34,247 bases of DNA, taken from NCBI GenBank assembly GCA_947596225.1, contig CANQEX010000010.1, positions 1 to 34,247 on the forward strand. The letters run 5' to 3'. A program made the translations under genes and the position numbers. Every line of letters starts with the position of its first letter. Position 1 is the stretch's first letter. Below the pieces are notes generated by a model. It saw only the letters and a program-made list of their open reading frames with translations, did not search any database and was not told the origin of the DNA. Below are positions 22,198 through 25,745 of this stretch, piece after piece. The stretch is from an uncultured Clostridia bacterium. Its GTDB lineage: Bacteria > Bacillota > Clostridia > TANB77 > CAG-508.

Positions 22198-22518
22198 ATG
22201 AAAAATCAAAAAGGTATAACATTAGTTGCTTTAATATTAATTATGGTAGTTTTGTTAATTTTAGCTGGTATATCAATATCACTTGTTTTAACAGATAAAA
22301 AGGTAAAAACAGAGACAGAAATGAATGACAATTCATATACAGTAGATGATGACGTTCTTTTTGACATAAACGGAAATCCAATTACTAGTTCAGAAGATGA
22401 AGAAAATGAGGTTGATGATAACTCAGTTGTAGAATCTACTTTAGATGAAAATACTGTAAACACAACAAATACTGTAAGTAATGAAATTGCTAATGAAGTA
22501 AATAATGTAACTTTATAA
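22198..22518 (+). CDS. Short prepilin-like/type IV pilin N-terminal-domain protein with acidic tail
   Basis: MKNQKGITLVALILIMVVLLILAGISI: prepilin-type leader and hydrophobic helix; good RBS. Confidence 0.75.
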   Translation: MKNQKGITLVALILIMVVLLILAGISISLVLTDKKVKTETEMNDNSYTVDDDVLFDINGNPITSSEDEENEVDDNSVVESTLDENTVNTTNTVSNEIANEVNNVTL

Positions 22519-22551
22519 TAAATAAAAATGAAATAAGAAAGTTTGTAAAAA

Positions 22552-23034
22552 ATGTTAAATATCAATGTTATATGTGTTGGAAAATTAAAAGAAAAATATT
22601 TAAAAGAAGCAGTTTTAGAATATTCTAAAAGATTGTCAAAATACTGCAATTTAAAAATTATTGAAATATCAGATGAAAAACTTCCAAATAAAATAAATAA
22701 AAATACTATACAAGAAGTAAAAAGTAAAGAAGGAATGAAAATATTAGATAGTATAAAGAAAGACTCATATATTATTGCACTAGATTTATATGGAAAACAA
22801 TTTACTTCAGAAGAATTTTCAGAAAAAATTGAAGATATTTCTGTAAGAGGATATAGTAGTATAACTTTTATTATAGGTGGAACATTGGGTATTTCAAAAG
22901 CAGTATTAAATAAATGCAATGAATTAGTATGTTTTTCTAAAATGACATTCCCACATCAGTTAATAAGAGTATTTTTGCTTGAACAAATATTTAGAGCTTT
23001 TAAAATTTCAAATAATGAAACATATCATTGGTAA
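22552..23034 (+). CDS. rlmH: 23S rRNA (pseudouridine1915-N3)-methyltransferase
   Basis: INVICVGKLKEKYLKEAVLEYSKRLSKYCNLKIIEI; FIIGGTLGIS; MTFPHQLIRVFLLEQIFRAFKI...YHW. Confidence 0.96.
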   Translation: MLNINVICVGKLKEKYLKEAVLEYSKRLSKYCNLKIIEISDEKLPNKINKNTIQEVKSKEGMKILDSIKKDSYIIALDLYGKQFTSEEFSEKIEDISVRGYSSITFIIGGTLGISKAVLNKCNELVCFSKMTFPHQLIRVFLLEQIFRAFKISNNETYHW

Positions 23035-23038
23035 TTAA

Positions 23039-23067
23039 TTGATATTAATTTTTTTATGTGATATAAT
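23039..23067 (+). promoter_or_regulatory. Sigma-A-type promoter for a structured leader/small RNA
   Basis: TTGATA (23039-23044), 17-nt spacer, TATAAT (23062-23067). Confidence 0.7.
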
Positions 23068-23073
23068 ATTTAT

Positions 23074-23170
23074 GTATATGATATTGTGTATTGGAACATA
23101 TTCCACTAAAAAGATAATTGTATAATGTTTATCATATACTATAGGAGTAGGAGGAAACTCCTACTTTTCT
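23074..23170 (+). ncRNA. Candidate small RNA or structured 5' leader (about 96 nt)
   Basis: GTATATGATA (23074-23083) pairs perfectly with TATCATATAC (23130-23139), enclosing TGGAACATATTCCA; followed by AGTAGGAG-GAAA-CTCCTACT-TTTCT hairpin; predicted start is the first base of the stem. Confidence 0.5.
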
Positions 23171-23186
23171 ATTATAGGAGAAAAAT

Positions 23187-23867
23187 ATGTGGAGAAATTA
23201 TTTTTTGCAAATTCAAAATAAATATAATATGAGATTAAGTATATCAGAACCATTAGTTATTAGATTTGATGGAAAAGATGTTACAAAAGATAATACAATA
23301 AATTTATTTGATATATATAATGGGAGTTTTGCGGATAGTATAGAAAAAACTGTGAAATTCTTTACAGCTAAATATCATGCTTTTTCTATATTTGGATCAG
23401 ATGAAATTAGTTTTATATTTCCAGACCCTATGAGTATTATATCTGATTTAGATGTAGAAAAATCTAATCGTTCAAACAAGATAATTTCATTATTTTCTCA
23501 ATACTTATTTAATTATTTTAATTCTTTGTATAAAGGAAGAATTATATTTTGGGATGTTAAAGCATTTTCAATACATAAAGAAAAATTAAGTTCTTATATA
23601 AAATATCGTTCAGGAAGCTTAAAAAATGTAGTAGTTACATATTTCTTAAAAAAGAAAAGAGTAATAATAGGAGATAAACCTTTAAAACAATTATTAAATG
23701 AAGCACAAGAATTTGATGATTATAAAATGCTAGAAAAAGTTCAAAATGGAAGATTATATTATGATGGTAGTGAAATCGATATAATAGATTATTTAGAAAA
23801 TGGAAAAATAACTAATCTTAAAAAAGAAGTATTTACTGATGATTATATAGATTTATCAAGTTTTTAG
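23187..23867 (+). CDS. Thg1-like protein (tRNA-His guanylyltransferase family, putative 3'-5' RNA polymerase)
   Basis: RFDGKDVTK (metal-binding D), IFGSDEISFIF (second acidic motif), SNKIISLFSQYLFNYFNS, IFWDVKAFSI...YIKYRSGSLKNVVVTYF matching the Thg1 order of motifs. Confidence 0.72.
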   Translation: MWRNYFLQIQNKYNMRLSISEPLVIRFDGKDVTKDNTINLFDIYNGSFADSIEKTVKFFTAKYHAFSIFGSDEISFIFPDPMSIISDLDVEKSNRSNKIISLFSQYLFNYFNSLYKGRIIFWDVKAFSIHKEKLSSYIKYRSGSLKNVVVTYFLKKKRVIIGDKPLKQLLNEAQEFDDYKMLEKVQNGRLYYDGSEIDIIDYLENGKITNLKKEVFTDDYIDLSSF

Positions 23868-23882
23868 AAGAAAAGAGGTTTT

Positions 23883-24755
23883 ATGGAAGGAATAATTTTA
23901 ATAGATAAACCTAAAGGTTTTACTTCTCAAGATGCAGTATCTAAAACAAAAAAAATATTAAATGTAAAGAAAGCTGGACATACTGGAACTTTAGATCCAA
24001 TGGCTACAGGTGTTTTACCGATATTACTTGGAAATTATACAAAATTATCAAAATATCTTATTGAGCATGATAAAAAATATATTGCAAAAATAAAATTAGG
24101 TGAAAAAACAGATACAGGTGATATAGAAGGGAAAATTATTGAAACAAAACAAGTTAATATATCTAATTTAAAAAAAGTTGAAAAAATATTAGAAGAATTT
24201 ATAGGAAAACAAGAACAAATTCCTCCAATGTATTCTGCAATAAAAGTTAATGGAAAAAAGTTATATGAATATGCAAGAGAAGGAATAAATATAAAAGTTA
24301 ATCCTAGAAATATAGAAATATATAATATAAAACTTATTAATATTGATGAAAAGAATTTAGAAATAGAATTTGAAGTTAGTTGTTCAAAAGGAACTTATAT
24401 AAGAGTTTTGTGTGAAGATATAGCAAAAAAATTAAATACAGTAGGAACTATGAGTTTTTTAAAAAGAACAGAAGTTGATAAATTTAAATTAGAAGAATCA
24501 ATTAATTTTGATATATTAGAGAAAAATAAAAATAATGAAGAATTTTTACATTCAAAATTATTTACAATGGAAAAATTATTTTCTAATTATGATGCAATTA
24601 ATTTAAATAATAAAAAGAAAACTTTATTTTTAAATGGTGTTTTGCTTACATTTTACTTAAAAGATGGTATTTATAATATATATGATGATAATAAAAATTA
24701 TATAGGTTTAGGCATTATAAAAAATAATTTATTAAAAAGAGATATAATAATTTAA
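23883..24755 (+). CDS. truB: tRNA pseudouridine(55) synthase
   Basis: GIILIDKPKGFTSQDAVSKTKKILNVKKAGHTGTLDPMATGVLPILLG; YSAIKVNGKKLYEYAREG. Confidence 0.97.
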   Translation: MEGIILIDKPKGFTSQDAVSKTKKILNVKKAGHTGTLDPMATGVLPILLGNYTKLSKYLIEHDKKYIAKIKLGEKTDTGDIEGKIIETKQVNISNLKKVEKILEEFIGKQEQIPPMYSAIKVNGKKLYEYAREGINIKVNPRNIEIYNIKLINIDEKNLEIEFEVSCSKGTYIRVLCEDIAKKLNTVGTMSFLKRTEVDKFKLEESINFDILEKNKNNEEFLHSKLFTMEKLFSNYDAINLNNKKKTLFLNGVLLTFYLKDGIYNIYDDNKNYIGLGIIKNNLLKRDIII

Positions 24756-24830
24756 AAAAATATTAATACCTCTTTACAAAATACTACTTTTTTTGATAAA
24801 ATTATAAAAATTCAAAAAAGGAGTATAATA

Positions 24831-25745
24831 ATGAAAAATTTAATTGATATTAAAGATTTATCAGTAGAAGAAATTGATGATCTTATTGAAGTAGCTAAAG
24901 ATATTATCGCAAACCCAGAGAAATATTCTCATAAATGTGATAATAAAATATTAGCTACTTTATTTTTTGAGCCAAGTACAAGAACTAGATTAAGTTTTGA
25001 ATCAGCTATGCTTAGATTAGGTGGAAAAGTTTTAGGATTTTCAGAAGCATCTTCAAGCTCTGTATCAAAAGGAGAAACTGTGTCAGATACTATAAGAATA
25101 GTAGGCTGTTATAGTGATATTATAGCAATGAGACATCCAAAAGAAGGAGCACCACTTGTTGCATCTTTTAAATCAGTAGTTCCAATAATTAATGCAGGAG
25201 ATGGAGGACATAATCATCCAACTCAAACTTTAACTGATTTATTAACAATTAAATGTGAAAAAAATAGATTGGATAACTTAACAATAGGACTTTGTGGAGA
25301 TTTAAAATTTGGTAGAACAGTTCATTCTTTAATTTCAGCAATGAGTAGATATAAAGGAATAAAATTTGTTTTAATTTCACCAGATGAATTAAAACTTCCT
25401 GAATATGTAAAAAAAGATGTCCTAGATAAGAATAATATAGAATATTGTGAAACAAAAAATATTGAAGAATATATTGGTGATTTAGATATTCTTTATATGA
25501 CAAGAGTTCAAAAAGAAAGATTTTTTAATGAAGAAGATTATATTAGATTAAAAGATTATTATATATTAAATAAAGATAAATTAAAAAATGCAAAAGAAGA
25601 TTTATGTATTTTACATCCATTACCAAGAGTTAATGAAATTTCAGTAGATGTAGATGATGATCCAAGAGCATGTTATTTCAAACAAGCTAATTATGGAAGA
25701 TATATTAGAATGGCGTTAATTTTAAAAATGTTGGAGGTAAAATAA
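24831..25745 (+). CDS. pyrB: Aspartate carbamoyltransferase catalytic subunit
   Basis: [58 protein letters not shown]. Confidence 0.97.

Follow-up and report, generated by a model that had tools for sequence, protein, structure and literature searches.

In this analysis, we examine a gene for a divergent Thg1-like protein (TLP) and the small structured RNA that precedes it, both found in a 34,247-nucleotide (nt) stretch of DNA, here termed the window, from an uncultured Clostridia bacterium (contig CANQEX010000010.1). The TLP gene (23187-23867, + strand; 226 amino acids, aa) and the RNA, which belongs to an undescribed family (23074-23139, +), lie between rlmH (22552-23034, +) and truB (23883-24755, +), flanks that we identify by gene reading and comparison with genus mates. 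Between these two genes also lie a sigma-70 promoter (TTGATA-17-TATAAT with a TG before the -10 box; 23039-23067, +), a terminator-like hairpin that separates the RNA from the start codon and carries a T-rich tail (23142-23168, +) and a ribosome-binding site, AGGAG, read directly from the sequence (23176-23180, +). An earlier note on this DNA had named the flanking genes correctly and read the TLP alone, overlooking the conserved RNA just upstream. We find the two associated one-to-one across relatives and tentatively read them as the components of a single cassette.

By sequence comparison and modelled fold, the open reading frame (ORF) at 23187-23867 is a divergent Thg1-like protein, as the earlier note had proposed from ordered motifs that include RFDGK (D28) and GSDEISFIF (D72, E73), both of which are present in the intact frame. 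Taken alone, the window protein gives borderline matches: PF04446 (Thg1) at E 4.3e-5 and 23.9 bits, under the gathering score of 29.2 bits, PHROG 4717 (tRNA-His guanylyltransferase) at E 1.2e-5, and MaTLP at E 0.04. Neither Rfam, PADLOC nor PHROG supplied a name for gene or RNA more informative than tRNA-His guanylyltransferase. The identity is settled by the relatives' profile, the fold search and profile-profile alignment: BtTLP (4kgk) is matched at 5e-6 by a profile built from 26 relatives, comparison by HHalign with 16 canonical TLPs of bacteria and phages returns 98% probability, and Thg1/TLP structures fill ranks 1-32 (E 1.9e-9 to 1.2e-5) in a Foldseek search of the PDB with the AlphaFold model (pLDDT 88.5), the first other match following only at E 0.075. 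Giant-virus Thg1 proteins also top a BFVD structure search with the same model. The resemblance, by profile or fold, extends over most of the protein, and the three catalytic carboxylates (D28, D72, E73) are invariant across the 26 sequences of alignment A1, being lost only in decaying copies of tandem pairs (described below).

The RNA first emerged as an element common to the sequences ahead of 21 homologues. A search model trained on 8 tandem-type loci places it upstream of all 31 TLP loci examined, including each of the 23 outside training (22 at E <= 0.006). In the window, where the model match spans 23073-23140, the RNA is ~66 nt long, and the segment 23070-23190 has a folding z-score of -3.2. 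Rfam 15 holds no match above gathering score, and the RNA would give that database a new family. It folds as a three-way junction. The terminal helix P1, 7-20 bp across the family, pairs 23074-23083 with 23130-23139 (+) according to the covariance model. P2, by alignment A5 and its pair counts the family's most conserved helix (UGGA/UCCA with flanking ACGAA), forms the hairpin UGGAA-CAUA-UUCCA at 23092-23105 (+). A nearly invariant GUAGAACUA-type strand then runs into P3 (ACUA/UAGU), which abuts the 3' strand of P1 directly, much as the T arm abuts the acceptor stem in tRNA.

Covariation was measured on the model-based alignment A5 of 31 sequences, in which 95.7% of cells are paired and two-sided changes occur at 15 of 20 pairs (82 cells in total); none of 500 shuffles reaches any of these measures. 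Although A5 was fitted to the structure, so that the counts lean towards it, there is little doubt that the structure is real, because pairing falls to about 27% when the partner strand is slid by one column and because the raw P1 strands themselves pair (GCAAUAU/AUAUUGC, GUAUACAAU/GUUGUAUAC, GAUAUGCAGUA/UAUUGCAUAUC).

The cassette is patchy and, in this survey, restricted to one order of uncultured Clostridia: the TLP is carried by 4 of 53 genus genomes, 21 of 295 family genomes (one doubtful partial match included) and 23 of 391 order genomes, and by 2 of 392 in a class sample, both from the same order. A match in G156 (E 4.5e-4; part of the query aligned, at 29% identity) was dropped; its locus lacks the RNA, and none of the ORFs of at least 150 aa there can be read as a TLP. 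A tblastn search of the INPHARED phage genomes with the window protein yielded no carrier. Searched with a second RNA model, the 295 family genomes contain one RNA in each of the 20 true-TLP genomes (E <= 8e-6), and every one of these 20 significant matches adjoins the TLP. As this model was trained on these same TLP loci, the weight of the test lies with the roughly 275 TLP-free genomes, which are clean: six matches at E 0.036-0.096, fewer than expected by chance, include no convincing free-standing copy. The same RNA was not found beside canonical TLPs of phages, plasmids or Bacilli, and a Thg1-family protein with a dedicated RNA has no report in the open-access literature searched. What bacterial TLPs act on in the cell is still an open question (PMC6471195), and a TLP family always accompanied by one small, well-defined RNA provides a directly testable candidate native ligand.

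The first alternative to weigh is an ordinary TLP whose task is to mend truncated tRNAs or to add G-1 to tRNA-His, aided by the products of rlmH and truB. The Thg1 fold and the catalytic carboxylates would suit such an enzyme, and the earlier note had drawn an RNA-maintenance role from the neighbouring genes; we consider it improbable. Within the window's genus, G000 and G237 are the only genomes with the TLP between rlmH and truB; many other species, without a TLP, have the two genes side by side (some 7-110 nt apart wherever both could be located). The ~0.8 kb insert comprises promoter, RNA, hairpin and TLP only. Homologues elsewhere adjoin dnaK/dnaJ, rplU, trpS, nrd, uvrB and others, locations that differ across genera and tend to be common within one genus. 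A functional link was therefore rejected: rlmH and truB merely mark the insertion site, and the argument from neighbours fails. The TLP evolves like its neighbour truB, with 63.7% versus 67.8% identity between G000 and G237 and dN/dS (NG86) of 0.34 versus 0.35.

The tRNAs likewise offer such an enzyme little to do. Acceptor stems pair normally, with a few ordinary exceptions, in about 90 carrier tRNAs, and the tRNA-His gene of G237, the closest carrier, encodes G-1 opposite C73; repair of 5'-end mismatches and addition of G-1 were accordingly both rejected, leaving the previously suggested 5'-repair role unsupported. Doubts already voiced about classical tRNA-His specificity are borne out, as the HINN motif of eukaryotic-type Thg1 (with N161) is absent from the window protein, whose corresponding segment reads SGSLKNVVVTYF. 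Moreover, no polynucleotide kinase (PNK) or RNA ligase partner was found beside the divergent TLPs, and an ordinary repair enzyme leaves unexplained both the dedicated RNA and the small number of relatives that carry the TLP. By comparison, the two canonical TLPs found in Bacilli both adjoin a PNK, and one also an RNA ligase (cf. PMC2904730). Proteins with a canonical PF04446 domain occur in 2 of 399 phylum genomes.

The layout of the locus raises a further alternative. The window promoter is the best in 22400-24900 (11 of 12 matches), its -10 box ending 6 nt ahead of the RNA helix; among relatives, a sigma-70 promoter is found in nearly all loci, with the -10 box usually ending 3-9 nt before P1, and in most loci the predicted transcription start lies at most a few nt from the outermost P1 pair. 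The window hairpin is the only terminator-like site in 2.5 kb (one found, 0.1 expected in shuffles), and 28 of 31 loci have a hairpin after P1, part of this count resting on scoring by eye. Across the 26 loci measurable by script, the 12-nt tail of the hairpin holds 157 T versus 116 A, against 83 T versus 146 A in the next 12 nt, and 19 of these tails have at least five T in eight. An RNA that invariably lies in cis, oriented like the gene, with a hairpin and a ribosome-binding site after it (P1 itself adjoins the latter at three loci), could act solely as an autoregulatory leader: the TLP, itself an RNA end-repair enzyme, or a ligand would bind a leader mimicking its target and tune termination or translation. 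Mimicry of a protein's RNA target by an mRNA leader is well known, and we regard this main rival as possible but doubtful. Overlap between the hairpin and P1-P3 is not systematic, which leaves no sign of a conserved antiterminator; such leaders are typical of stable housekeeping genes, whereas the cassette is patchy and accessory; and no defect that an end-repair enzyme would need to mend was found in the carrier tRNAs.

Mapping of residues onto BtTLP, through hidden Markov model and HHalign alignments, reveals marked departures from canonical TLPs. The column of the KPFD lysine (BtTLP K43), used for ATP activation (PMC3701042), has no conserved K. Nearly all members have HxK in place of the DxR motif; the window copy has DxK, and members fused to a GNAT domain have HxE. 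Among the basic residues that grip the triphosphate of the incoming nucleotide (NTP) in BtTLP, R16 is replaced by N or S, K99 by E or D in nearly all members (K98 in the window copy), and R131 corresponds to K125 in most members and to E in the GNAT fusions. The WRQxD motif gives way to a (Y/F)RS-type segment, so that of the WRQ/N-like segment named previously, R141 and N147 stand while W, Q and D are gone. The family lacks the activation lysine and an intact basic trio, residues that mark canonical activity more than superfamily membership. Overall, the divergent TLP shares with BtTLP (4kgk/4kgm) and MaTLP (5axk-5axn) a full-length fold by Foldseek and the RxDG and DE motifs, here within a single 226-aa domain, but only about 15-20% identity, and differs from both in standing always behind a dedicated RNA.

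These residues bear on a third alternative, in which the RNA would be the dedicated substrate or template of the TLP, its predicted 5'-triphosphate at the P1 tip being extended 3'-5' into a non-genomic product, in a retron-like manner but by a reverse-direction polymerase. The predicted start near the outermost P1 pair would place the triphosphate suitably; a 5'-triphosphate needs no adenylation, consistent with the missing activation lysine; and the catalytic carboxylates are kept in every intact copy. However, no conserved template sequence lies 3' of P1, and two of the three NTP-gripping basic residues are not kept in the family, and we judge this alternative unlikely. The window copy itself departs from conserved positions in both partners, the protein carrying H123D, C126A and K at 98 and the RNA (23123-23139) having GUAUAA where the family has GUAGAA, with P3 gone. 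These changes reflect either co-evolution or early decay.

The interpretation we favour, with somewhat less than even confidence, is a two-component RNA-protein cassette of AbiF/type III-like layout, in which the RNA is the cognate ligand and controller of the TLP. The sigma-70 promoter would start a ~95-nt RNA with its 5' end at the P1 tip, which would fold as the three-way junction and mostly end at the downstream hairpin, with readthrough yielding the TLP. The TLP would bind this acceptor-stem-like RNA, which may in turn limit TLP synthesis in cis and fill the TLP substrate site in trans. TLP free of RNA, if it retains 3'-5' nucleotidyl transfer, could modify tRNA-like RNAs of cell or phage at their 5' ends, giving the cassette a putative regulatory, toxin-like or defence role. 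A cognate ligand is favoured because a Thg1-type relative grips the acceptor stem plus T arm (PMC6471195) and the RNA offers a long helix with a second abutting it.

The closest parallel in layout is AbiF of C. difficile, for which experiments established a SigA promoter, a ~98-nt non-coding RNA (ncRNA; RCd22), a Rho-independent terminator and readthrough into the protein gene; the short RNA dominates, and it acts both in cis and in trans to neutralise the protein (PMC12373285). With this system and with type III toxin-antitoxin modules, the cassette shares the order of promoter, short structured RNA, predicted terminator and protein gene, as well as a patchy distribution and compactness. Several observations weigh against the reading. 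Type III antitoxins are repeats, whereas the cassette RNA is a single three-way-junction unit without them. The protein is a Thg1-like nucleotidyltransferase, for which toxicity and neutralisation are hypothetical, rather than a homologue of ToxN, CptN, TenpN or HEPN AbiF, and PADLOC returns no credible match for the cassette. The neighbourhoods are mostly core genes rather than defence islands. Furthermore, regular P3 is lost in the RNAs of the window and of G237, and at L076, L081 and L082 the hairpin is absent and the ribosome-binding site directly follows P1, an arrangement that would fit a simple cis-acting leader as well.

A broader possibility, which we hold with considerable reserve, is a new class of system, guided or templated by RNA, whose 3'-5' polymerase acts as a ribonucleoprotein with its own encoded RNA and either extends that RNA or selects targets with it, plausibly in phage defence, with tandem TLPs forming a heteromeric enzyme. 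Retrons and ncRNA-associated DRT systems likewise encode a palm-domain polymerase beside its own structured ncRNA. Theirs is a reverse transcriptase instead of the Thg1-type palm found here, where no reverse-transcribed region or effector is recognised, and the cassette would thus add a palm polymerase other than a reverse transcriptase to such systems. MenT toxins are also nucleotidyltransferases proposed to act on tRNA-like ends, but they belong to an unrelated family, extend the 3' acceptor end and have a protein antitoxin.

Variants of the cassette keep the RNA upstream. In several genomes, two TLPs follow a single RNA, always in the order A then B (L043, L045, L046, L049), and the pair appears old, as A and B each form their own clade (support 100/96 for B, and 100/99 for A without a decayed copy). 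Decay of the A copy is under way in genus g9 (L050, L080, L083): L080 and L083 have lost catalytic residues, and stop codons interrupt the copies of G293 and G484. TLPs are dimers whose active sites cross subunits (PMC3701042), and by analogy A and B may form a heteromer. RhuM-like genes lie near three tandem cassettes (L046:1964-2956, L049:1-243, L050:6481-7497) and a recombinase-like fragment near one, a possible mobile or defence context. In two members, the TLP is preceded by a fused N-terminal GNAT domain (PF00583; E 9e-20 and 8e-18; L044:2287-3468 and L051:6701-7867). The tree does not place them firmly together, and this fusion may therefore have arisen twice.

Further features were observed in the same genomes. 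G474, which has a divergent TLP with its RNA, also encodes a canonical TLP (KPFD, SDEIS, FDxK, RQLD; L091:1447-2262, +) close to a KptA/Tpt1 RNA 2'-phosphotransferase-like gene (L091:218-799). The C-terminal part of truB is split across frames in many genus mates (G154, G299, G141 and others), reflecting either a variable C-terminus or assembly errors. Finally, the window encodes a small pilin-like protein at 22198-22518 (starting MKNQKGITLVALILIMVVLLILAGISISLVL), and similar short proteins occur near L032:13203-13466 and L038:3142-3378.
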